64,000 nt of DNA from assembly GCF_031885415.1 (NCBI RefSeq), contig NZ_CP116871.1:3286001-3350000 (forward strand), written 5' to 3'. Of the stretch, positions 48,273-60,003 are shown piece after piece (positions within the stretch are counted from its first letter, which is position 1; the number at the start of each line of letters is the position of its first letter). The notes beneath the pieces are model-generated. The model made no database searches. It was not told the origin of the DNA and was given only the letters and a program-made list of their open reading frames with translations. This stretch comes from Microbacterium forte. GTDB lineage: Bacteria > Actinomycetota > Actinomycetes > Actinomycetales > Microbacteriaceae. The translations under genes and the position numbers were made by a program.

Positions 48273-48728
48273 GTGGCAGTGAACCAAGATCTTCTCGGCC
48301 GGGAGTTCCCGCCGACGTCCCCCTATCTCGTCGGTCGCGAGAAGGTGCGCGAGTTCGCGCGCGCGGTCTTCGCCGACGCTCCGCAGCACACCGACGTCGA
48401 GGCTGCGCGTGCGGCCGGTTTCGCCGATGTCGTGGCGCCGCCCACCTTCGCGATGGTCATTCAGGATCTCACGCTGCAGCAGTTGCTCGCCGAACCGGAC
48501 TCGGGCATCGTGCTGGCGCGCACGATCCACGCCGAGCAGAAGTTCGCCTACTCGCGCCCGATCGTGGCGGGCGACGAGCTCACCGGCCGGCTGCGCGTGA
48601 CCGCCATCCGCATGATGGGTGGCAACGCCATGATCACCAGCGCGGCAGAGATCACGGATGCCGCCGGCGAGCACGTCGTCACCGCCACCAGCGTGCTGCT
48701 GGTCGGCGCCGAAGAAGGAGCAGAGTGA
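48273..48728 (+). CDS. MaoC-like dehydratase N-terminal subunit (HadA/FAS1-like)
   Basis: This 151-residue hot-dog protein starts LGREFPPTSPYLVGREKVREFARA and has APPTFAMVIQD, as in HadA-type and MaoC N-terminal proteins that pair with a catalytic HadB-type partner. The pair would hydrate or dehydrate an acyl thioester. Homologous pairs next to murB are common in actinobacteria; in mycobacteria they act in FAS-II, while in organisms without mycolic acids the substrate is unclear. TGATG overlap with the next gene. Confidence 0.85.
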   Translation: MAVNQDLLGREFPPTSPYLVGREKVREFARAVFADAPQHTDVEAARAAGFADVVAPPTFAMVIQDLTLQQLLAEPDSGIVLARTIHAEQKFAYSRPIVAGDELTGRLRVTAIRMMGGNAMITSAAEITDAAGEHVVTATSVLLVGAEEGAE

Positions 48729-49126
48729 TGTCGTTCGCTGTCGGAGACGTCGTCGCAGAGCGCACGGTGCACATCACCCGCGAGTCGCTGGTGCGCTACG
48801 CGGGAGCGTCGGGCGACTTCAACCCGATCCATTACCGTGACGACATCGCCGCCGAGGTGGGTCTGCCCGGCGTCCTCGCGCACGGCATGCTCACGATGGG
48901 CATCGCCTCGTCGGTGGTCGTCGCGGCCCTCGAACCGGGCACCCGCATCCTCGACTACGGCGTGCGATTCACCAAGCCGGTCGTGGTCGACCCCGCAGAC
49001 GGAGCCGACCTTCACGTCGTCGCCACCGTCGGCGCCGTCGATGAGGAATCGACGCGCATCGACCTCAAGGTCACGTTCGGCGAGACGACGGTCCTCGTCA
49101 AGGCGCAGCTGCGCGTCGCCTCCTGA
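48728..49126 (+). CDS. MaoC-like dehydratase catalytic subunit (HadB-like)
   Basis: This 132-residue hot-dog protein has the hydratase-2 motif YAGASGDFNPIHYRDDIA, with the catalytic Asp and His, and GVLAHGMLTMGI. It is expected to form a heterodimer with the product of 48273-48728 and to act on (3R)-hydroxyacyl thioesters. ATG 48728 (TGATG) is used. Its own stop overlaps murB in the same way, so the three genes are coupled. Confidence 0.88.
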   Translation: MSFAVGDVVAERTVHITRESLVRYAGASGDFNPIHYRDDIAAEVGLPGVLAHGMLTMGIASSVVVAALEPGTRILDYGVRFTKPVVVDPADGADLHVVATVGAVDEESTRIDLKVTFGETTVLVKAQLRVAS

Positions 49127-50271
49127 TGGGCGACGGCGTGGTGCGCGAGGTCGAGCCGCTCAAGCTGGCCACTCTCACGACCCTCCGAACGGGTGGGGCC
49201 CCCGAGCGGATGCTCGAGGCGTCGACCTCCGCCGAGCTGGTCGATGCGCTCACCGACGTGTGGTCACGCGGCGACGAGTGGTTCGTCCTCGGCGGCGGCT
49301 CCAACCTGTTCATCGGTGACGAACCGTTCGAGGGAACCGTCATCCGGATCCTCACCCGCGGCATCGAGGAGCTCCCGTCGCCGCATGCCGGACGCATCCG
49401 CCTTCGTGTGCAGGCGGGGCACGGCTGGGACGATCTCGTCGCCTACGCCGTCGAGCACGGGTATGCCGGACTCGAGGCGATGAGCGGAATTCCGGGCACC
49501 GTCGGCGCCTCGCCGGTGCAGAACATCGGTGCGTACGGTCAGGAGATCCAAGAGACCCTGGTCGAGGTCGAGCTCATCGACGAGGCGACGGGCGAGGTGT
49601 CGGTCGTCCCGGCATCCGAGCTCGGGCTCGGGTTCCGAACCTCCGTGCTCAAGCATCACTACGGCGGTGTGCCGCAGCGCCGTGCCGTCATCCTGTCGGT
49701 CACGGTCGATCTTCTCGTCGCCGAGGAGCGCGTCGTCCGCGGCGAGCAGCTGCGCAGGGCGCTGGGGCTCGACTCCGACGCCCCTGTGCCGCTCACGTGG
49801 GTGCGGGAGCGGATCCTCGCCACGCGCGCGTCGAAGGGGATGCTGCTCGATGAGAACGACCCCGACACGCACGGCGTCGGCTCGTTCTTCCAGAATGCGA
49901 TCGTGCCCGAGGTCGTCGCCCGCGCCCTTCCGCCCGAGTGCCCGCGGTGGCCGGTGACCCCTGACCTCGACACCGTCACGGTGATCCCCCTCGCCTCGTA
50001 CGACGGCTATGTTCCCGCCGCGAAGCCAGAAGCGCCCGACGTGAAGGTGAGTGCCGCCTGGCTGATCGAGCAGGCCGGGATCCGCAAGGGTTTCAAGCTG
50101 CCGAGGTCACGGGCATCCGTCTCTACCAAGCACGCCCTCGCCCTCACCAACCGCGGCGGCGCGACGGCCGCCGAGGTCTCAGAGCTCGCCCGCTTCATCC
50201 AGAGCCGCGTCCATGCGGAGTTCGGGCTCGTGCTGCAGCCGGAGCCCGTGCTTCTCGGCGTCGAACTGTAG
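49126..50271 (+). CDS. murB: UDP-N-acetylenolpyruvoylglucosamine reductase
   Basis: This 381-residue FAD enzyme reduces UDP-GlcNAc-enolpyruvate to UDP-MurNAc for peptidoglycan. Landmarks are LGGGSNLFIGDEPFEGTVI (FAD site), GLEAMSGIPGTVGASPVQNIGAYGQE, GVGSFFQNAIV with the catalytic serine, and the final glutamate region QPEPVLLGVEL. At about 380 residues it is the longer type I form. Operon with the two MaoC-like genes. Confidence 0.96.
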   Translation: MGDGVVREVEPLKLATLTTLRTGGAPERMLEASTSAELVDALTDVWSRGDEWFVLGGGSNLFIGDEPFEGTVIRILTRGIEELPSPHAGRIRLRVQAGHGWDDLVAYAVEHGYAGLEAMSGIPGTVGASPVQNIGAYGQEIQETLVEVELIDEATGEVSVVPASELGLGFRTSVLKHHYGGVPQRRAVILSVTVDLLVAEERVVRGEQLRRALGLDSDAPVPLTWVRERILATRASKGMLLDENDPDTHGVGSFFQNAIVPEVVARALPPECPRWPVTPDLDTVTVIPLASYDGYVPAAKPEAPDVKVSAAWLIEQAGIRKGFKLPRSRASVSTKHALALTNRGGATAAEVSELARFIQSRVHAEFGLVLQPEPVLLGVEL

Positions 50272-50277
50272 CGGCCC

Positions 50278-50889
50278 GTGTTCGAGTGGCTCCAGGCCGA
50301 GTGGCCTCAGGTTCTCGGCTTCATCACGGGCGCGGTCTGCGTGTGGCTCGCGGGCCGCCGTAACGTCTGGAACTACCCGATCGGCATCGCCAACAACGTG
50401 GTGCTGTTCGTCGTCTTCATCGGCGCGGGGCTGTACGCGACATCGGCCCTCCAGGTCGTCTACCTGCTGATGGGTCTGCATGGGTGGTGGCGATGGACGC
50501 GCGGTGCGGAGCAGAGTCGCACGTATGTCGTCAACACGCCGCGTCGGGCATGGCCATGGCTGGCTCTCGCCGCGGTCGCGGGCACGGCCGTGCTGGTGTG
50601 GGTGCTCACGACGTTCACCGACTCGCAGGTCGCGATCGCCGATGCGGCGACCACTGCGGCGAGTCTCGTGGCGCAGTACATGCTGAACCGCAAGTGGATC
50701 GAGAACTGGTTCGTGTGGATCTGCGTCGACATCGCCTTCGTCGGCCTCTCGATCGCCGCGGGTCTCTGGGTCATCGCGGCGCTGTACGTGCTCTTCATCG
50801 CCCTGTGCGTGATCGGCTACCGCTCGTGGCGTCAGGCGGCCGTCGCCGACCGCGAGACCCCTGCGGTCGCGGCGTCCGCCCGAGCGTGA
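50278..50889 (+). CDS. pnuC: Nicotinamide riboside transporter PnuC
   Basis: This 203-residue protein has seven hydrophobic segments and the PnuC marks WNYPIGIANNVVLFVVF, YLLMGLHGWWRW (WxxWxxW-like substrate pocket) and YMLNRKWIENWFVWICVDI. It carries nicotinamide riboside by facilitated diffusion, driven by phosphorylation inside the cell. The next gene (nadR) encodes that kinase. The start GTG 50278 lies 6 nt after murB. Confidence 0.93.
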   Translation: MFEWLQAEWPQVLGFITGAVCVWLAGRRNVWNYPIGIANNVVLFVVFIGAGLYATSALQVVYLLMGLHGWWRWTRGAEQSRTYVVNTPRRAWPWLALAAVAGTAVLVWVLTTFTDSQVAIADAATTAASLVAQYMLNRKWIENWFVWICVDIAFVGLSIAAGLWVIAALYVLFIALCVIGYRSWRQAAVADRETPAVAASARA

Positions 50890-50899
50890 GGTGAGGCGC

Positions 50900-51970
50900 A
50901 TGAGCGGACACGGTCTCGTCCTCGGCAAGTTCTATCCCTTTCACAGCGGGCATTCGCACCTGATCCGTCGGGCGCAGCGCGACAGCGACCGGGTCACCGT
51001 GCAGGTGCTGGGCGCGTCGGTGGAGTCGATCCCGCTGGAGGTGCGCGCGAGCTGGATCCGCGAGTCGCACCCCGGCGCGCGCGTCGTCGCGGCGATGGAC
51101 GACGCCCCGGTCGACTTCGAGTCGCAGGCAGCGTGGGACGAGCACATGGCGCTGATCGCCTCGCTGCTCGACGGCCCGGTCGACACGGTCTTCTCGTGCG
51201 ACTCGTATGGCGGCGAACTGGCCAGGAGCCTCGACGCGCGCTGGGTGCAGATCGACGAGGGCCGCCGGATCAATCCCGTCTCCGGCACGGCGATCCGTGC
51301 CGACGTCGCCGGCAACTGGCATGAGCTCGCACCGGCCGTGCGCGCATGGCTGACCGCGCGCGTGGTGGTGCTGGGCGCGGAATCCACCGGCTCGACGACT
51401 CTCGCCGAAGCGCTCGCCGATCGGCTGGGCACGCTCTGGGTGCCGGAGTACGGCCGCGAGCACTCCGTCATCCGCGAGGGCGGGCTGAGCGCGCCGTGGC
51501 GCAGCGATGAGTTCGACCTCATCGTCGACCGGCAGATCGCCCTCGAGCAGCAGGCGCTCAGGCAGGTACCGGTGCCGGTGCTCGTGTGCGACACCGATGT
51601 GCTCGCGACGGCACTGTGGCATGAGCGCTACGTCGGCGCGGTGGCGCCGCGCCTGCATGAGGCGGCAGCCGCGCACCCGCCGCTCCTCTACGTGCTCACC
51701 GGCGACGAGATCCCCTTCGAGCAGGACGGCCTGCGCGACGGCGAGCACATCCGTCACGACATGCAACAGCGTTTCCGCGACGTGCTCGCCGCGCAGGACG
51801 TGCCATGGCTCGAGGTGCATGGCGATGTCTCGAGACGGGTCGACGCCGCGGCATCCGCGCTCGCACCGCTCCTCGCCGAGCACCTGAGCTTCGCCCTTCC
51901 GCTCGAAGCTCGGCCCCTCGACGAGCAGCGGGCGCTCCAGCAGAACGCCCGATCGACATCGTTAGGATGA
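50900..51970 (+). CDS. nadR: NadR-type NMN adenylyltransferase / ribosylnicotinamide kinase
   Basis: This 356-residue bifunctional enzyme has an N-terminal nucleotidyltransferase domain (LGKFYPFHSGHSHLI with HSGH at 15-18) and a C-terminal kinase domain with the P-loop GAESTGSTT at 159-167, followed by EYGREHS. It traps nicotinamide riboside as NMN and makes NAD. The N-terminal helix-turn-helix of enteric NadR is absent, so no repressor role is expected. ATG 50900 follows GTGAGG; GTG 50891 is possible. It forms an operon with pnuC. Confidence 0.92.
   Translation: MSGHGLVLGKFYPFHSGHSHLIRRAQRDSDRVTVQVLGASVESIPLEVRASWIRESHPGARVVAAMDDAPVDFESQAAWDEHMALIASLLDGPVDTVFSCDSYGGELARSLDARWVQIDEGRRINPVSGTAIRADVAGNWHELAPAVRAWLTARVVVLGAESTGSTTLAEALADRLGTLWVPEYGREHSVIREGGLSAPWRSDEFDLIVDRQIALEQQALRQVPVPVLVCDTDVLATALWHERYVGAVAPRLHEAAAAHPPLLYVLTGDEIPFEQDGLRDGEHIRHDMQQRFRDVLAAQDVPWLEVHGDVSRRVDAAASALAPLLAEHLSFALPLEARPLDEQRALQQNARSTSLG
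51963..51968 (+). promoter_or_regulatory. -10 element TAGGAT, leaderless start of the MoxR operon
   Basis: TAGGAT, then gatcgc, then ATG 51975 (6-nt spacing). The element lies across the last codons of nadR. Confidence 0.65.
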
Positions 51971-51974
51971 TCGC

Positions 51975-53543
51975 ATGCCCGACCGCTGGAACCGAGTGTC
52001 CGCCTCACCCACGAACCCCGGCAGCGGCCACGGCGTCGAGTCTCTGACAGCCGAGGATCTCTTCCGCCCGGCCGCGCGCAGCACGGTGCCGCTGGATGAG
52101 AAGCTGCGCCAGGTCTACTACTGGATCGTCAACCGCGCAGTCATCTCGCCCTACTACGACATGGAGTTCTCGCACGGAGAGCCGCTGTCGATCGGGCTGG
52201 GGGATGCCGGCGCCGCGGTGTCCCTCCCGACGCAGGCGTCGTTCTCGTCGAACGTCCTCGTGCCGCTGCTCACCTTCGCTGTCGGGGGCAAGTGCCTGCT
52301 CATCGGAGGTCCGGGGCGCGGCAAGACGACGGTCGCCGTGCTCATGGGCGTGCTGGCCGGCACCGCCTCCGACGACGTGCGGCGCAGCGTGCAGCAGGGG
52401 CAGCCGCAGCTGACGGTCAGCGACCTCGTGGGCATCCCTCTTCCTCGCGACCTGGTCGCCGCCGAGCGTCTCACCGACATCCGCATCGCCTGGCGCGACT
52501 GGCTCGGGTTGCCCGTCAAGATCATCGACGAGTACAACCGCATCCCCACCAAGACCCAGTCGGCGCTGCTCACCATGGTGGCCGAGGGGTATGTCGAGAG
52601 CCACGACCAGATGCGCCGCACCGCGCCGGACGGCGGTGTGGAGAGCTGGTTCTTCACGGCCAACGACGATGCGGGCGGCGGTACCTTCCCCGTGATCCAA
52701 GCCCTTCGCGACCGGATGGACGTCACGGTGCAGGCGGCCGGATTCAACAGCCGATTCTTCGATGAGCTGATCACCCGCGTCGAGGCGGGGGAGAAGCCCG
52801 AGGAGCATGTGCCCGCCGAGCTGACCTTCGATTCGGCCGAGCAGACCGAGATGCGCGCGCAGATCCGCGCGGTGCCGATTCCGGATGCCGTGCGCGAGCG
52901 CCTGCGATTCTTCCTCAGCCACTTCGAGTTCGTGCAGCACGGCGGGCGCCGCTTCGAATACCGCACGAAAGACGTGGTGACCACCGCGGGCGGCCGGGTC
53001 GGCGAGGTGATCGAGGCGAACAGCGGCGCCGACCTCGAGATCGACCTCGGCGCGCAGACCCGCAACGGCGTGTCGGTGCGCGCCTTGCAGACGCTCATCA
53101 TCTACGCGAAGGCGATCGCGTGGTTCCGGGGTGCGGATGCCGTCGAAATCGATGACGTCGCGGCGGTGCTGCCGTTCGTGCTCCGCGGAAAGCTGCTGCC
53201 GAACGCCACACATCCGCGGTTCGATGTCGGGGCGGAGCGCGAGCTCAGCACCGACACGGTGAGTTGGCTGGCCGACCTGTTCACGCAGTCATGCCGCCAA
53301 TACGACGCCCTCGGGCGCGACGCCGACGATGCGGTCGCTGCCCTGCTCAGCGAGTTCGACCGCGGGCTCGATGGCCTCCCGGCGCTCGAGGCATCCCGCC
53401 GCATCACCGCCGTCGAGGCCCAGCTGCGCCGGATCGCGACGGTGGGCAAGCTCTACGGTCGTGACTTCGACGACGTGATCGCGCTGAAGTATCTGCATCA
53501 GCGGTACACGGCGTATGTGCGCTGGCAGGAGCTGCGCGGGTGA
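51975..53543 (+). CDS. MoxR-type AAA+ ATPase
   Basis: This 522-residue protein has Walker A GGPGRGKTT (111-119), Walker B KIIDEYNRIP with D185/E186, and the sensor-like FFTANDDAGGGTFPVIQALRDRMDV. A helical lid follows and the last 100 residues are helical and unassigned. MoxR ATPases usually act as chaperones that load metals or remodel partner proteins together with vWA proteins. Here the vWA partner is two genes downstream. It is longer than the typical 320-350 residues of the family and has an extra N-terminal helical region. First gene of a five-gene overlapping unit (51975-58040). Confidence 0.88.
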   Translation: MPDRWNRVSASPTNPGSGHGVESLTAEDLFRPAARSTVPLDEKLRQVYYWIVNRAVISPYYDMEFSHGEPLSIGLGDAGAAVSLPTQASFSSNVLVPLLTFAVGGKCLLIGGPGRGKTTVAVLMGVLAGTASDDVRRSVQQGQPQLTVSDLVGIPLPRDLVAAERLTDIRIAWRDWLGLPVKIIDEYNRIPTKTQSALLTMVAEGYVESHDQMRRTAPDGGVESWFFTANDDAGGGTFPVIQALRDRMDVTVQAAGFNSRFFDELITRVEAGEKPEEHVPAELTFDSAEQTEMRAQIRAVPIPDAVRERLRFFLSHFEFVQHGGRRFEYRTKDVVTTAGGRVGEVIEANSGADLEIDLGAQTRNGVSVRALQTLIIYAKAIAWFRGADAVEIDDVAAVLPFVLRGKLLPNATHPRFDVGAERELSTDTVSWLADLFTQSCRQYDALGRDADDAVAALLSEFDRGLDGLPALEASRRITAVEAQLRRIATVGKLYGRDFDDVIALKYLHQRYTAYVRWQELRG

Positions 53544-54214
53544 ATCGCATCCCCGTGCAGCTGGCGAATGCGCCGGCTCCGTTCCCTCCCGCTGACCTGC
53601 CCGATCTCTCCGCCGCCGGACTCGACACCGCGCTGGCGTCGACCTCGGTGCGGGTCGCGCACGGCACTCCGCTGCTGTTCGCCAGGGCGCTCGCCGCGGG
53701 ACTGGCGCAGGATCCGGCGGCGGCGACCGACCGCGACCGGGCGCTCGATCTCGTGTCGGTCGCCGCGTGGCGGTCGGGCGCTCTCGGTCTGCGCGTCGAC
53801 GCACTTGATCGGCTCGAGCATCTCGACACCCCCGAGCAACGTCTGGCCGCTGCGGCGACGCTCGGACTCGGCGTCGACGTGCTCGACGAATTCCGTCGCA
53901 GGCAGCGGAAGGATCGCTTCTGGTGGCCCGGTCGCGCCGACCAGCGCGGGTATGTGCTCGCTGTCGGGGGGTTCCGCGGAATCGGGGGCGCCTGGATCCG
54001 GCCTCCCGAACGCGTCGACACTCTGGCGGACGCCGGAGCCTTCGCGATCCTCGTCGCGGGTTCGTGGTGGCGACTCGACAGCGACGTCTGGGGTGCGCGT
54101 CTCTCCGTGCTCTCCGAGGCGCCCAGCGAGGTGCATACCCGCGACGACGGGGTGAGCATCGTCATCGGACCCGACACCCATCTCGCCTGGGTGCATGTGC
54201 GGGAGCAGGAGTGA
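53540..54214 (+). CDS. Unknown protein of the MoxR-vWA operon
   Basis: The protein has 224 residues and no family I recognise. The first half is helical and Ala/Leu-rich (LDTALASTSVRVAHGTPLLFARALAAGLA). The second half is beta-rich with many tryptophans (DRFWWPGR, GSWWRLDSDVWG) and ends IGPDTHLAWVHVREQE. There is no signal peptide or membrane segment. It is joined to both neighbours by GTGA overlaps, so it should be made in fixed ratio with the ATPase and the metallopeptidase/vWA protein; an adaptor role is only a guess. Confidence 0.75.
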   Translation: MNRIPVQLANAPAPFPPADLPDLSAAGLDTALASTSVRVAHGTPLLFARALAAGLAQDPAAATDRDRALDLVSVAAWRSGALGLRVDALDRLEHLDTPEQRLAAAATLGLGVDVLDEFRRRQRKDRFWWPGRADQRGYVLAVGGFRGIGGAWIRPPERVDTLADAGAFAILVAGSWWRLDSDVWGARLSVLSEAPSEVHTRDDGVSIVIGPDTHLAWVHVREQE

Positions 54215-56085
54215 AGGCTCCTGTCGATCGGGTGCCGCTCACCAACGATGCCCGCGCGGCGTGGGAACGGGCTCTGGATCTCTGGCGGGTGCGGCTCGAC
54301 GATCCGGCGGTGCGTCCGGGCGCAGCCGACGAGCACGGTGCGCCGGCCTGGTTCTCGTTTCCGCCGTCGGTGACCGTCGACCCTCGCTACCTGGCCGAGC
54401 GCGGCCTGGCCGATGAGCTGTGGAGCATGTTCGCCCACGAGATCGGCCACCACGTGCTCGCCCCCAGCACGCGGATCGACTCGCTCAAGATCGACCATCA
54501 GATGGCGAAGGCGATCGCCGCCGTGTCGCTGCGCCCGAATCCGGGGGAGGGAGCGCGGCGGCTGTCGAACCTGTGGAGCGATCTGCTGGTCAACACGCGG
54601 CTCGCGCAGCTGCAGCGGGCCGAGCAGCGGAGTGCGGGCACCGCCACGCGTGATCTCGGCATCGTGCGCCTCGGTCGAGCGCTCTACCCGGCACCCCAGG
54701 GAAGCACGGACCGCCTCTGGTGGGTGTACTGCCGAGCGTACGAGCTGCTGTGGCAGCTGCCGTCCGGCACCCTCTGCGAGCTCGACCCGCCTCCGCGGCC
54801 GGCGCGGGCTCTCGCGCACACGAACCTCGTGCCGCTGAGCCGGATCCCCGAGAAGCACCGTGAGAAGGAGCGACTGCTGCGTGCGGCACAGGCGGAGAGC
54901 GCGCGGGTGGCTGCCGAGCTCGCCGGCGCGACCGCCACCAACCCCGCCGTCGACGCGGCCTTCATCGCCGACGCCGTGCGGACCTTCAGCACCGACCCGG
55001 TGTCGGGTGCCGCCCGCTTCGGCGTGGTCGCCGCGCCGTACCTGGCCGAGCTCGAGGGTGCTGCTGAGAGCGGTGCCGGCGAGCCGGTCAGCGGATGCGG
55101 TGTCGACGACGCGCCGGCGACGGCCGAGGAGCTCGGCCGCATCCTCGCCGACCAGCGCCTGCGAGACGACCTGCCTCGGCATCCGGGCATGGTGCTCGAC
55201 CCCGAAGGCGAGGACGCTGCAGATGACGCATCGGATGCGGGTTCCGGCAAGGACGGCCAGCGTCTGACGATCGCGCGGACGCTCTCGCTCTATCGGGAGA
55301 GCGGTGAGGACGCCGTGCTCTCGGCCTGGTACCGCAACGAGGCGGCCCGGTGGGTGCGCCCCTACACCCGCCCCGCACCCATGAGGCCGGTCGGCGGCAT
55401 CCCCGGTCCTGTCGAACTGTGGGAGGTGGGCGATGCGCTCGCCGACCTCGACTGGCCGTTGACGATGCGCTCGGGCACTGTGATCCCCGGCGTCACCACA
55501 CGCCGGCGTTCAGAGCTCGCCGACGAGCCCCTCGTGCAGGAGACGAGTCTCGAACTCGACCTCTACATCGACTCCTCGGGTTCCATGGCACATCCGCGAC
55601 AGGGCTCACCCGCGGTGCTCGCGGGGACGATCCTCGCGCTGTCGATCCTCCGCGGCGGTGGCAGGGTCAGAGTGACCAGCTTCTCGGGAACCGGAGACGT
55701 GGCGGGGATGCCGCGCTTCGGCCGCGATCCGTCTGAGATCATCGCCGCGATCTCGCTGTTCTTCGGTCGATCGACGTCGTTCCCGCTCGACCTGTACTCC
55801 GCCAGATACGCCGGTCTTCCCGCGGCAGCAGAAGACGCGCCCCGTCATGTGGTGGTGCTGTCGGACGACGGACTCGTATCGATGTTCGGGGTGGGCAACG
55901 AACCGTACGCCGGCGTCGCCAGGACCGTTCGCGAGGTGCTCACGACGGGTACGCTCGTGCTCATGGACCCCCGACGCCAGGTCGCGACGCTCGCCGAGCG
56001 CGACGGCTACGACGTGGTGTACCTCCGGACGATGGCCGATGCACCGGCTGCGTGCGCGGCTCTGGCGGCGGCGCTGCATGGCTGA
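54211..56085 (+). CDS. HExxH metallopeptidase-like + vWA domain protein (DUF2201/COG3864-like)
   Basis: This 624-residue cytoplasmic protein has two parts. The N-terminal part contains FAHEIGHHVL with the zinc motif HEIGH at 76-80. After a variable middle region with an acidic Asp/Glu stretch (about 330-350), the C-terminal part is a von Willebrand A domain with the MIDAS motif DSSGS at 454-458 (LDLYIDSSGSM) and HVVVLSDDG. The combination of a predicted metal-dependent peptidase with a vWA-like domain is known from DUF2201/COG3864 proteins, which commonly neighbour MoxR ATPases. Substrate unknown. Start GTG 54211 (GTGA). Confidence 0.85.
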   Translation: MKAPVDRVPLTNDARAAWERALDLWRVRLDDPAVRPGAADEHGAPAWFSFPPSVTVDPRYLAERGLADELWSMFAHEIGHHVLAPSTRIDSLKIDHQMAKAIAAVSLRPNPGEGARRLSNLWSDLLVNTRLAQLQRAEQRSAGTATRDLGIVRLGRALYPAPQGSTDRLWWVYCRAYELLWQLPSGTLCELDPPPRPARALAHTNLVPLSRIPEKHREKERLLRAAQAESARVAAELAGATATNPAVDAAFIADAVRTFSTDPVSGAARFGVVAAPYLAELEGAAESGAGEPVSGCGVDDAPATAEELGRILADQRLRDDLPRHPGMVLDPEGEDAADDASDAGSGKDGQRLTIARTLSLYRESGEDAVLSAWYRNEAARWVRPYTRPAPMRPVGGIPGPVELWEVGDALADLDWPLTMRSGTVIPGVTTRRRSELADEPLVQETSLELDLYIDSSGSMAHPRQGSPAVLAGTILALSILRGGGRVRVTSFSGTGDVAGMPRFGRDPSEIIAAISLFFGRSTSFPLDLYSARYAGLPAAAEDAPRHVVVLSDDGLVSMFGVGNEPYAGVARTVREVLTTGTLVLMDPRRQVATLAERDGYDVVYLRTMADAPAACAALAAALHG

Positions 56086-56686
56086 CACCGAGGCGCTGCT
56101 CGCCGCCTGGAGCGAGCGCTCGGACGGAGAGGCTGCGGCCTGGGCTCGCGCGAGGCCGGGGCCGTCGCTGGAGTCCGTCGCGACGCGGATCTCCCGCATC
56201 CCTCAGGAGTTCCTCGATGAGCGCATCTCGCTGCGAGCGCTCGCCGGAGACATCCTGGGCGGGCAGATCAGCGCTTCGGCATTCGACGAAGACCCGCGCG
56301 TGCGCCAGGGTGCCGCGATCGGCCTGTGGCTCGTCGCCAGCGAAGACGTCCTCGAGCCGCTCGAGCCGGCACTCGCGAGCGGCTGGGCCGCCCTCGCGGT
56401 CGACGCGCTCGCACTGCGCGTGGCCCCGGTCGCGTCGCCGTCGGACTGGACCTCAGACGATGAACGGCGCACCGAAGCCGCGCGCACGTTCCTGCTCTGG
56501 TGCGGGTTCCTTCCGGCAGGCGAGGATGCCGCGACCGCCGCCTCCCTGCTGGCGGCCTGCGACTCGCTCGCCCGCAACCGGGCGCTCGCCGAGGCATTCG
56601 AGGGGCACCGGCACAGGGCCGAGATCGCTCGGAAGCTCGCAGAGGCACGCCGCAAGGAGGCGGCTGCGAGGTACTCCAGTGAGTGA
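56078..56686 (+). CDS. Unknown helical protein of the MoxR-vWA operon
   Basis: This 202-residue, Ala-rich, all-helical protein (RVRQGAAIGLWLVAS, LEPALASGWAALAVDALALR) has a repeat-like look that recalls HEAT-type helical scaffolds; this is only a resemblance. It has no signal or membrane segment. The end is a charged helix (RKLAEARRKEAAARYSSE). Its start lies 8 nt inside the vWA gene and its stop overlaps the next start, so it belongs to the same coupled unit. Confidence 0.72.
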   Translation: MADTEALLAAWSERSDGEAAAWARARPGPSLESVATRISRIPQEFLDERISLRALAGDILGGQISASAFDEDPRVRQGAAIGLWLVASEDVLEPLEPALASGWAALAVDALALRVAPVASPSDWTSDDERRTEAARTFLLWCGFLPAGEDAATAASLLAACDSLARNRALAEAFEGHRHRAEIARKLAEARRKEAAARYSSE

Positions 56687-58040
56687 CCCCGACCTCCGAG
56701 GGGCGCTCGCGCTCGCCGAATACGCACCGGGGGAGGCCGCGGTGCTCTCCGATGCCGAGCGCTGGCCGACGATCGACGCCGCAGGCACTGCTCGACTGAC
56801 CCGTTGGCGGGAGCATCCCGACGCTCCGCACTGGACGCATGCCACGGGCGACCGCCTCACCGCAGAACAGGTGCAGCGGGTGCGGCATCCGCTCTCGACC
56901 GATGGCTGGCTGGTCGATCATCTCGCCGCCGCGCGACGCACGCTGCGGTATCGCGGGATGCCGACAGATGCCGCGCTCGACGACTTCCCCACGATCTCGC
57001 GGTCGGACCTCGTCGACGACCTCGCGGCGTTCGTGCCGCTCGATGCGGATCTCTCCCGGATGCTGCACGGCACGAGCTCCGGTTCGACGGGCGCGGCGCT
57101 GCTCATCCCCGATGACGTCGAGGAGGTCGCGCGCGGCTTCCACCTGCTCGTCGCGCTCGCGGCGTCTGCGGGGGCCACGGTGACGGCCGACGGCGAGCGG
57201 GTGGCGGTGGCGAACCTCGTCTTCCAGCGTCAGGCCTTCACCTACGTGTCCACGATCTCGAGCTTCGCACACCGGGCGATGGCGCGGCTCAATCTGCATC
57301 CGACGGCGTGGAGCGGTCTCGATGCCCGCGCCCGATTTCTGGCCGAGGCGGACCCGCAGATCCTCAGCGGACACCCGACGAGCCTCGCCGAGCTGCTCGA
57401 CGCCGGACTCGACGCCGTGCTGCATCCCGCCGTGGTCTTCTCCGGCGCGATGGCGCTGTCGGCTGCGCTGCGTGCACGACTCCACGCGGCGTTCGAGTGT
57501 CCCGTGGTCGACGTGTACGGCTTGCACGAGACGCGCCCGATCGCCGCGCGCACCGATGACGAGCCGTTCCGGGTGCTCGATCGCCGCGTGCACGTCGAGG
57601 TGTGGGATCCCCGGCGCGAGGTCGCGCTGCCTCTCGGCGAGATGGGCGAGATCGTCGTGACCGCGGGAGAGAACCCCCTGCTGCCGCTGGTGAGGTACCG
57701 CACGGGCGACTACGGGCGCCTGGTGCACCTCGACGATGGGGTGCTCGGCATCGCCGACCTCGAGGGGCGCCAGAACACGCGGTTCCGGGCCGGCGACGGC
57801 ACTCTCGTTCCCTGTGTCGAGCTCACGCAGCATCTGCAGGCACGCGGTGCCCAGGGGTGGTCGATCGAGCAGGCTGCCTCCGGTCGCGTGCACGCCGTGA
57901 TCGTCGGCGGAGACGAGCCCGCCATCCGCGTGGCGCTGGACGCGCTGCTCGGGGTCGAGATCGAGCTGCGGCAGGTCGAGCGCCTGATCGACCTCGGCGA
58001 GGGCAAGCCCCGGCGCTATCGCAGCGCCGTGCCCGACTGA
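56679..58040 (+). CDS. PaaK/F390-synthetase-like adenylate-forming enzyme
   Basis: This 453-residue ANL-type protein is closest in layout to phenylacetate-CoA ligase/coenzyme F390 synthetase: P-loop HGTSSGSTGAAL, FSGAMALSAALRARL, VDVYGLHETRPIAAR (A5 region), RYRTGDYGRLVHL (A7) and a short C-terminal domain ending EGKPRRYRSA. It should make an acyl- or aryl-adenylate; whether it ends as a CoA ester or modifies a protein or small molecule is unknown. It is the last gene of the MoxR-vWA operon and has no pathway partners nearby. GTG 56679 is inferred from frame and overlap. Confidence 0.8.
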   Translation: MSDPDLRGALALAEYAPGEAAVLSDAERWPTIDAAGTARLTRWREHPDAPHWTHATGDRLTAEQVQRVRHPLSTDGWLVDHLAAARRTLRYRGMPTDAALDDFPTISRSDLVDDLAAFVPLDADLSRMLHGTSSGSTGAALLIPDDVEEVARGFHLLVALAASAGATVTADGERVAVANLVFQRQAFTYVSTISSFAHRAMARLNLHPTAWSGLDARARFLAEADPQILSGHPTSLAELLDAGLDAVLHPAVVFSGAMALSAALRARLHAAFECPVVDVYGLHETRPIAARTDDEPFRVLDRRVHVEVWDPRREVALPLGEMGEIVVTAGENPLLPLVRYRTGDYGRLVHLDDGVLGIADLEGRQNTRFRAGDGTLVPCVELTQHLQARGAQGWSIEQAASGRVHAVIVGGDEPAIRVALDALLGVEIELRQVERLIDLGEGKPRRYRSAVPD

Positions 58041-58059
58041 CAACGTCGCCCGTTCGCCG

Positions 58060-58065
58060 TACACT
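58060..58065 (+). promoter_or_regulatory. -10 element TACACT, leaderless start at 58072
   Basis: TACACT, then cgcggc, then ATG 58072 (6-nt spacing). Confidence 0.6.
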
Positions 58066-58071
58066 CGCGGC

Positions 58072-58473
58072 ATGAGCGGACCGATCCCCTACCTTCTGTT
58101 CCCCGGGAACGCAGCCGAAGCGCTGGAGCACTACCGTTCGGTCTTCGGGGGTGAGCTTCAACTCCTCGACTACGCCGGCGCCGGACGACACGACGGGCCG
58201 GGAGATGCGATCGCACACGGCCAACTCGCGGGGCCGGTCGGGCTCGCGGGTGCGGATGCCGGAGCCGACGACGACGCGGTGCAGATGAGCGGGATGTTCC
58301 TGTCGCTGCTCGGCACCGCGGATGCCTCGACGCGGACCAGCTGGTACGACCAGCTGGCCTCGGACGGTCGCGTGATCGACGCCCTGCAGAAGCGCCCCTG
58401 GGGCGACTACGACGGCACGGTCATCGATCGCTACGGCATCCGCTGGCTGATCGGATTCCACGACGAGGAATGA
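58072..58473 (+). CDS. VOC-fold (PhnB/3-demethylubiquinone-methyltransferase-like) protein
   Basis: This 133-residue protein has the PhnB-type start PYLLFPGNAAEALEHYRSVFGGEL, a HGQL motif in the middle (a usual metal-site His) and the end RYGIRWLIGF, near the canonical FGxxWxl end of the family. The family includes glyoxalase-fold proteins of mixed function, most without known substrate. It has its own leaderless promoter. Confidence 0.85.
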   Translation: MSGPIPYLLFPGNAAEALEHYRSVFGGELQLLDYAGAGRHDGPGDAIAHGQLAGPVGLAGADAGADDDAVQMSGMFLSLLGTADASTRTSWYDQLASDGRVIDALQKRPWGDYDGTVIDRYGIRWLIGFHDEE

Positions 58474-58516
58474 GCGCGAGCGGGACTCTGATCATCGAGT
58501 CCGGCCATGACGCCGA

Positions 58517-58549
58517 GACCCCCTCACATCCATGTGGAGTGAGGGGGTC
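58517..58549. terminator. Bidirectional hairpin between the VOC-fold gene and the aminotransferase gene
   Basis: GACCCCCTCAC / GTGAGGGGGTC, a perfect 11-bp stem with an 11-nt loop, between convergent genes. Confidence 0.7.
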
Positions 58550-58579
58550 CCGGGTGTCGCGGCAGAGTGGGAGTGCGAC

Positions 58580-59779
58580 TCAGGCGAACAGACGCTGCAG
58601 GCGCTGCACGCCCTCGAGGAGCTGGTCGTCGCCGAGCGCGTACGACATGCGGATGTAGCCGGAGGGACCGAACGCCTCGCCGGGAACCACGGCGACCTCT
58701 GCCTGCTCGAGGATGAGGTCGGCGAGTTCGAGCGAAGTGGTCGGCGTCGTGCCGCCCCAGGTGCGGCCGAGCAGACCCTGCACGTCGGGGTAGACGTAGA
58801 ACGCGCCGAGCGGGTTGGGCACGACGAGTCCGTCGATCTTCGACAGCTCCGACACGATCAGGCGGCGACGGCGGTCGAACGCCTCGCGGAACTGCTCGGC
58901 CTCGGTCTGGGGGCCGTTGAGTGCGGCGATCGCGGCCTTCTGGGCGACGTTGTTCACGTTGCTCGACAGGTGCGACTGCAGGTTGGCGGCGACCTTGATG
59001 GCATCCGCCGGTCCGACCATCCAGCCCACGCGCCAGCCGGTCATCGCGTAGGTCTTCGCGACGCCGTTGACGAGGATCGTCTGGCCGGCCACCTCGGGCA
59101 CGGCCTCGACGATCGAGGTCGCCTTGACGCCCTCGTAGGTCAGGTTCTGGTAGATCTCGTCGGAGATGACCCAGATCCCGTGCTCGAGAGCCCACTCGCC
59201 GATGGCCTTGGTCTCTTCAGCCGTGTAGACGGAGCCCGTGGGGTTCGAGGGGGAGACGAACACGAGCGCGGTGGTGCGCTCGGTGCGAGCGGCCTCGAGC
59301 TGCTCGACGGTGACCTTGTAGTCCTGGTCGGCGCCCGCGAACACCTCGACGGGGGTGCCGTCGGCGAGGCGGATCGCCTCGGGGTAGGTGGTCCAGTACG
59401 GAGCGGGAAGAAGCACCTCGTCGCCGGGGTTCACCACTGCCTGGAACGCCTGGTACACGGACTGCTTGCCGCCGTTGGTCACGATCACCTGGCTCGGTGA
59501 GACCTCGAGTCCCGAGTCGCGCAGCGTCTTCGCGGCGATGGCCTCCCGCAGCGCCGGAAGACCCGGAGCCGGGGTGTAGCGGTAGCTCGCCGGGTCGGCG
59601 AGAGCCTCGGCCGCTGCGTCGACGATGAACTGCGGCGTCGCGAAGTCGGGCTCGCCCGCGGCATACGAGATGACGGGCTTGCCTTCGGCCTTGAGGGCCT
59701 TCGCCTTGGCGTCGACCTTGAGGGTCGCGGATTCGGCGATGGAGGAGAGCTTGCGAGAGAGAGGAGCGCGTTCGGTCAC
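58580..59779 (-). CDS. Aspartate aminotransferase (class I, PLP-dependent)
   Basis: This 399-residue fold-type I aminotransferase has [47 protein letters not shown] and the PLP lysine in [16 protein letters not shown]. It belongs to the group that includes bacterial AspC/AspAT Ib and prephenate aminotransferases. The start is GTG 59779, with TACGCT 7 nt upstream. The frame is open for another 198 nt upstream, but that part has no homology to the family. Confidence 0.92.
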
Positions 59780-59786
59780 GACTACG

Positions 59787-59792
59787 AGCGTA
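59787..59792 (-). promoter_or_regulatory. -10 element TACGCT of the aminotransferase gene
   Basis: TACGCT on the minus strand, 7 nt before GTG 59779. Confidence 0.5.
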
Positions 59793-60003
59793 CTCGGGTG
59801 GGGCGCCCGGATGACGGGTCGGATGCCGTCAAGAATCGTGGTTCTTTCCGGCGCTCGCCGCGGACTCGACGGGCGCAGCGTCTCGTGCCCACGGAACTCG
59901 TCGGTGAGCGCGGTCGAGATCGCGATCGCCGGCATCAGCACGGCGCCGACGATCGCACCCGGCCGTGAACCCCGCACGGACTATCTGGTGTGTCCGCAGC
60001 TGC

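Follow-up and report, generated by a model that had tools for sequence, protein, structure and literature searches.

A MoxR/vWA operon of Microbacterium forte linked to PnuC and NadR, with a possible role in maturation

This analysis considers a group of linked genes in Microbacterium forte (NCBI RefSeq assembly GCF_031885415.1). The DNA analyzed, referred to as the window, is a stretch of 64,000 nucleotides (nt) from contig NZ_CP116871.1 (positions 3,286,001 to 3,350,000 of the forward strand), and coordinates given without a locus name refer to it. Five genes of the window, called g1 to g5 in order, encode a MoxR-type AAA+ ATPase, a protein with both an HExxH metallo-site domain and a von Willebrand factor type A (vWA) domain, an adenylate-forming enzyme and two proteins without an assigned family. 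They recur as a set in many bacteria, usually beside genes for PnuC and NadR, proteins associated with salvage of nicotinamide adenine dinucleotide (NAD).

The locus and its conservation

The features of the locus, including the predicted metal-binding motifs of g3 (MIDAS, metal ion-dependent adhesion site; NMN, nicotinamide mononucleotide; aa, amino acids; values after family names are E values), are as follows.

50278..50889, + strand: PnuC, nicotinamide riboside/NMN transporter family, in the extended operon (PF04973, 2.2e-51; TIGR01528, 2.2e-23)
50891..51970, + strand: NadR-like protein with NMN adenylyltransferase and ribosylnicotinamide-kinase-type domains (PF13521, AAA_28, 2.8e-27; PF01467, cytidylyltransferase, 2.1e-4; TIGR01526, 2.9e-49)
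51963..51968, + strand: TAGGAT box, probable leaderless promoter of g1, 6 nt 5' of its ATG and overlapping the NadR stop codon
51975..53543, + strand: g1, MoxR-type AAA+ ATPase, 522 aa (AAA_lid_2, 3.9e-9; AAA_3, 1.1e-5)
53540..54214, + strand: g2, no family assigned, helical N-terminal half and all-beta C-terminal half in the predicted structure, 224 aa
54211..56085, + strand: g3, HExxH metallo-site domain and vWA domain, 624 aa (motifs read directly)
54436..54450, + strand: codons for HEIGH, g3 residues 76-80 (from the translation)
55570..55584, + strand: codons for the MIDAS motif DSSGS, g3 residues 454-458 (from the translation)
56078..56686, + strand: g4, no family assigned, all-helical with a C-terminal helix of 39 residues in the predicted structure, 202 aa
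56679..58040, + strand: g5, PaaK-like adenylate-forming enzyme, 453 aa (AMP-binding, 1.7e-8; PaaK structure 2y4o by profile, 1.3e-17)

The genes g1 to g5 form a same-strand run (51975-58040, + strand) with successive overlaps of 4, 4, 8 and 8 nt, which confirms the overlaps of 4 to 8 nt described when this DNA was read from its letters alone (the sequence-only reading). That reading treated the five genes as the entire unit; all five are real and linked, but the unit was drawn too short, since a PnuC gene and, directly after it, a NadR-like gene precede g1. The NadR-like gene has its first start codon at 50891 (50900 is possible too) and ends at 51970, 4 nt 5' of g1. Therefore, we tentatively regard the five genes as the 3' portion of an operon of seven genes (pnuC-nadR-g1-g2-g3-g4-g5) acting as one module, a view held jointly with the mechanism proposed below. 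In the host genome, a single contig of 3.75 Mb, g3 is present once.

A scan of a GTDB-based collection with an alignment of g3 as bait yielded 77 distinct loci (L-numbers designate individual fetched loci and G-numbers genomes). All 77 contain a complete g1 to g5 on a single strand with the gene order unchanged, and they span many actinobacterial genera plus two gammaproteobacteria; this count includes L039, in which g1 is split over two frames, and L044 and L099, in which g5 is cut by a contig end. Both g1 of L039 and NadR of L103 span two reading frames, through either gene disruption or an error in sequencing. Among further fetched stretches, some from genomes that overlap with the 77, all five genes were found in 13 of 14, and the fourteenth (L037), whose g3 match was 6.8e-4, has none of them. 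The overlap lengths also recur, with 4 nt shared by g1 and g2 in 72/77 loci and by g2 and g3 in 75/77, counts that are generous because start codons were picked by nearness to the preceding stop. Rather than being rarely found together, as would befit a chance neighborhood, the genes therefore make up a set, and we consider the five-gene module itself to be well supported.

The set is distributed sparsely. A g3 gene is found in 7/59 genomes of the genus, in at least 10/248 genomes of the order (9 clear matches and one weak one, 6.8e-4) and in at least 18/396 genomes of the phylum (16 of them distant; 11 stretches were fetched from these 18 genomes), the order and phylum values being lower bounds with few candidates scored per genome. 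Named relatives among the best 120 listed are mostly Microbacterium, and M. foliorum encodes a g5 relative of 91% identity. In the window (49126-59977) and its close relatives L024 and L038-L043, the operon lies between genes for MurB and an aminotransferase. In L025, L027, L028, L047, L048, L051, L052, L054 and L056, MurB adjoins the aminotransferase gene and the operon is located beyond both, so it has either moved or been gained separately.

The sequence-only reading also proposed a leaderless promoter before g1. Support for it comes from the first 19 of the 77 loci (L038-L056, mostly Microbacterium, one of which, L053, starts with GTG), because TAGG[AC]T is present 5-7 nt 5' of the g1 start in 19/19 despite variable surrounding sequence. 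Across the same loci this motif precedes 20 of the 3216 plus-strand ATG codons, a count from which the g1 sites are not separated, and a looser TA...T box is found before g1 in 39/77 loci. A standard sigma-70 scan detected no promoter before g1. The sole sigma-70-like promoter within 48500-58700, at 58037-58065, precedes a glyoxalase-like gene (58072-58473).

Partners in pyridine nucleotide salvage

The adenylating enzyme had been thought to lack pathway partners, a view that no longer holds, since PnuC and NadR are both near the set in 60/77 loci. In 58 of these, all actinobacterial, the pair is upstream of g1, and in 56/58 the end of NadR falls anywhere from 4 nt into g1 to 214 nt ahead of it (the other two have NadR ~3.4 kb away); in the remaining 2, which are gammaproteobacterial, the pair follows g5. 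Both partners accompany each of 13 complete loci fetched separately (L024-L036). They also follow g5 in 7/7 complete gammaproteobacterial sets (L110, L112, L119, L120, L134, L135 and L136), with PnuC on the opposite strand in L110. The existence of the same partners in a different gene order argues for selection for the partnership. The seven genes also agree in their pairwise distances, with correlations of 0.76-0.94 over 58 loci, values obtained without a housekeeping control.

The genes were also profiled across genomes. Within the genus, NadR was found in 6/59 genomes, all of them among the 7/59 with g3, and the seventh g3 genome is fragmented (580 contigs, 87% complete). Within the order, some NadR match exists in 25/248 genomes and one with E < 1e-100 in 11/248; these 11 include every one of the 9 genomes with a clear g3 match, and the other two (G194 and G149) contain PnuC-NadR with no g1 to g5 within 18 kb. 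Thus, the set usually implies NadR, and NadR does not imply the set. Since physical linkage alone would yield such a profile, a partnership kept in another phylum with the gene order reversed is the stronger argument.

The window PnuC is assigned with confidence by its score (83.2 bits against the TIGR01528 equivalog cut-off of 42.45), whereas the NadR-like protein scores below the TIGR01526 cut-off (168.1 against 341.15 bits) with both of its domains matching Pfam. The HxGH motif is kept in the 5/5 NadR proteins inspected. Among the frames in which the pattern could be read, a tally that includes some genomes twice, 70/77 have a kinase-domain P-loop of the form GAESTG[ST]TTL and so are without the usual Lys, which is replaced by Ser in the window protein, while all four gammaproteobacterial NadR proteins inspected keep GGESTGK. 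Absence of this Lys looks like a clade trait, because actinobacterial NadR proteins unlinked to the set are also without it. One conceivable reason for keeping PnuC and NadR would be NAD auxotrophy, but this is ruled out by the de novo enzyme NadA, present in 56/59 genomes of the genus including all 7 with g3, so the pair is not there simply for making NAD. In sum, we regard the link of the module to NAD as well supported.

Properties and variants of the encoded proteins

The residues expected for catalysis are strongly conserved in three of the five proteins, which makes catalysis by g1, g3 and g5 likely. In g1, the Walker A sequence GGPGRGKT, the Walker B residues DE and a TANDD motif are identical in 77/77 loci; its AAA_lid_2 match (36.6 bits) is above the Pfam cut-off of 22.7, and its AAA_3 match (25.8 bits) is just under the cut-off of 27. 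In g3, H76, E77, H80, D124 and E178 are identical in 77/77 (the motif is HEIGHH in the window and HExGHH across relatives), and a third metal ligand is predicted among the conserved D124 and E178. The MIDAS of g3 is complete, with D454, S456, S458, T522 and D552 identical in 77/77. In g5, the A3 glycines, the A5 Glu, RYRT plus Asp of A7 and the Gly-Arg of A8 are identical in the 75/75 sequences of at least 400 aa (two cut ones excluded), and the A10 Lys is kept in 67/75.

Family assignments are less certain. The family search returned no Pfam match for g3, and among its relatives VWA_2 (0.033, in 2/10 members) and Peptidase_M48 (0.054) are marginal. A proposed likeness of g3 to DUF2201/COG3864 was not borne out by profile searches, with DUF2201_N matched in 0/10 relatives (HMMER filters drop most matches above ~0.1) and the DUF2201 family itself in 0/40 related genomes; the HExxH and NLWxDLLVN motifs presumably resemble that family, as judged by eye. 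Profile matches of g3 in the PDB were weak nuclear-receptor ones (E >= 0.016) and are considered chance. For g5, the match to NF045666 (the DVU_1553 family, 5.7e-21) is, like those to all other NCBIfam models matched, under the cut-off, and the score against the PaaK equivalog TIGR02155 is 38.5 bits, well below its cut-off of 646.3. No catabolic gene was recognized among the four flanking genes of the window scanned with Pfam.

The other two proteins are defined mainly by predicted structure. Pfam gave nothing for g2 and only sub-threshold matches for g4. The g2 model (predicted local distance difference test, pLDDT, 94.0) has a helical first half and an all-beta second half, while the AlphaFold model of g4 (pLDDT 95.6, predicted template modeling score 0.87) is all helical and ends in the 39-residue helix; no PDB entry matched either model at E<=0.001. 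Across 45 sequences of g4, only G28, E133, R136, E149 and E194 are invariant, and conservation of its C-terminus should not be over-read, as this end is partly constrained by the overlap with g5. A PHROGs search returned nothing at 0.001 for any of the five proteins.

Some gammaproteobacterial loci contain an additional gene for a radical S-adenosylmethionine (SAM) enzyme (PF04055, 2.6e-14). It is located between g3 and g4 in L120, L134, L135, L137 and L143, the sets of L137 and L143 being incomplete, and L112 has a weak radical SAM match (0.0019) ~6 kb before g1. NCBIfam matches of these proteins are mixed, and all of those shown for two scanned copies are below cut-off. Two examples are placed as follows.

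L120:10144-11109: radical SAM gene, between g3 and g4
L110:14229-15422: radical SAM gene, adjoining PnuC

In addition, a gene for a DAO-type flavin adenine dinucleotide-dependent oxidoreductase is positioned directly before g2, in place of g1, at L139:6373-7464 and L142:3293-4381.

More distant relatives are simpler. Ten distant actinobacterial loci (L225-L234; nine from one family and one from another) encode g1-like and g3-like proteins without g2 or g4, which suggests that the MoxR and HExxH/vWA pair is an ancestral core to which the remaining genes were added later. One of these loci, L226, has a weak match to the g5 profile (1.4e-5) ~4 kb from the pair. A related gene, mostly of ~281 aa, is found beside the pair in 9/10 of these loci (eight copies aligned), and two scanned copies had no Pfam match at 0.01.

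A possible maturation system and competing explanations

Several characterized systems offer points of comparison. RavA/ViaA and CbbQ/CbbO are MoxR/vWA couples that remodel or mature a specific target. In a third couple, NorQ/NorD, the MoxR ring is described as docking its vWA partner at the pore and remodeling a target (PMC9976466). The set considered here resembles these systems in that a MoxR AAA+ protein is encoded beside a vWA protein whose MIDAS is intact. Unlike in all three couples, the vWA domain is here fused to an HExxH domain, and g2, g4 and g5 are fixed members, usually along with PnuC and NadR. The salvage partners likewise resemble a PnuC-NadR pathway in having a PnuC above its cut-off and a two-domain NadR, but are distinguished by their tie to g1 to g5 and by the mostly absent P-loop Lys. 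Kinship in sequence and adenylation motifs connect g5 to the PaaK-type phenylacetate-CoA ligases and the DVU_1553 family, from which it differs by its scores and its neighbors, as described above. In the open-licence literature, where absence is not proof, no published operon was found that joins MoxR/vWA with a phenylacetate-CoA ligase or PnuC-NadR with MoxR, and another report has vWA in a different context (PMC9503650). The operon has apparently not been described before.

We tentatively favor the possibility that the module is a pyridine-nucleotide-linked MoxR/vWA remodeling and maturation system. In this scheme, PnuC would import nicotinamide riboside or a related nucleoside, which NadR would convert to the mononucleotide and dinucleotide. 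A ring formed by g1 would, after the precedent of NorQ/NorD, dock on the vWA domain of g3 and use ATP to remodel a target protein, possibly with the help of g2 and g4, which would serve as adaptors or recognize the target. Clipping or metallation of the target might follow at the HExxH/D/E metal site of g3, g5 would activate a carboxylate as an acyl-adenylate, and a radical SAM enzyme could add a further modification in those gammaproteobacteria that encode one with the set. The best candidate for a carrier or adaptor of g5 is g4, because the two are encoded side by side in complete sets. Maturation of a protein, or of a protein-borne cofactor needing a pyridine nucleotide, is the likely outcome under this proposal because it is a joint result that would need all parts. 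A bolder version, which we view as doubtful, is that g1 to g5 with PnuC and NadR form an assembly line whose product is an undescribed cofactor or protein modification derived from a pyridine nucleotide. NadR would supply the nucleotide, g5 would activate the carboxylate of an acceptor (g4 being one possibility), the radical SAM enzyme would modify it where present, and g1 and g3 would insert it into a target.

Several observations weigh against the favored scheme. In 17/77 loci the set has no linked PnuC and NadR (nine mycobacterial, five from Agreia, two from Schumannella and L106, whose contig ends just before g1). In the ten of these 17 genomes tested, NadR is found elsewhere in 10/10, and each of the three fetched has PnuC next to it; these NadR proteins are less similar (~1e-57 to 1e-68), at a level shared with genomes in which g3 was not matched. 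Conversely, the PnuC-NadR pair is present without g1 to g5 in L186 and L187, of the same order, and in six more loci, and the distant actinobacterial locus L224 has a complete g1 to g5 with no PnuC or NadR in 19 kb. A single radical SAM query detected the gene in none of the actinobacterial loci. A search of the gammaproteobacterial order around G469, in which 12 of 13 matches were examined and the weakest (2.9e-4) left out, gave 5 complete and 7 incomplete sets, some of the latter cut by contig ends. Finally, docking (by analogy), the target, the reaction, the order of steps and the g5 substrate are parts that we infer.

Other explanations account for some of these features. For example, the module could make or use an unusual pyridine-type nucleotide, with PnuC and NadR importing and adenylylating a nucleoside, g5 activating its carboxylate, and g1 to g3 inserting or handling a metal in the manner of CobS/CobT and Mg-chelatase pairs. 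That hosts make NAD de novo, so that a dedicated importer and NadR suggest a special need, would fit this proposal, as would the kept adenylation motifs of g5; yet the HxGH kept in the NadR proteins inspected means that ordinary NMN suffices as a substrate, and a Pfam scan of flanking genes recognized no metal-tetrapyrrole or carrier-protein gene, so we consider this small-molecule role unlikely. We would give somewhat less credence to the mechanism offered by the sequence-only reading, in which the ATPase and the metallopeptidase/vWA protein remodel or cleave a target tagged or activated by g5, independent of NAD. It draws on HExxH, MIDAS and Walker motifs that are invariant in all 77 loci and on a g5 in every set, but it ignores partners that two phyla link to the set, each at a different end, and neither a protease nor a tag is among the results. 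Accidental grouping of unrelated genes deserves virtually no weight, being refuted by the complete sets in 77/77 loci over many actinobacterial genera and two gammaproteobacteria, and nothing was found in its favor.

The MoxR plus vWA core also invites comparison with conflict systems. A conflict or defense system of the MoxR-vWA ternary type, as published (Kaur et al., 2020; PMC7159879), would share this core, and NadR and PnuC could refill NAD during attack. The patchy spread of the set (7/59 in the genus) is in keeping with such a role, as is a PemK-like toxin gene (L224:4387-4911) ~1.3 kb before g1 of the complete set in that distant actinobacterium. However, the present set differs from those systems in its HExxH domain N-terminal to vWA, its NAD-salvage partners and the absence of an effector domain recognized by Pfam in g2 or g4; PADLOC gave weak P-loop-type matches for g1 (E 0.003-0.04) and none for g2 to g5 up to E=1; there was no plasmid match and none was confirmed on viral contigs; and the flanks are MurB and the aminotransferase in the Microbacterium loci with a match. 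Taken together, these results make a defense function improbable. A relationship to the antagonism-resistance cluster Arc2 of Pseudomonas aeruginosa (PA4317-23) is more improbable still. The usual MoxR motif is TQNPIE. Arc2 is also a multigene operon with MoxR and VWF proteins, and these two protein types are reported in Xanthomonadaceae (PMC8926400), where g3 relatives also occur; but the published forward primer upstream of PA4323 reads TQNPIE by eye, and g1 has TANDD in 77/77, which suggests another MoxR branch. Identity with Arc2 was set aside on this eye-read, primer-derived motif and not by direct sequence comparison.

To our knowledge, MoxR/vWA pairs occur widely, and for most of them no target is known. 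No significant Pfam match was obtained for three proteins of the set (g2, g3 and g4), and the set offers named metabolic partners (PnuC and NadR), an adenylating enzyme and sometimes a radical SAM enzyme, so its chemistry is directly approachable. The set also suggests that a PnuC-NadR pair in genomes that make their own NAD may serve something beyond general NAD supply.

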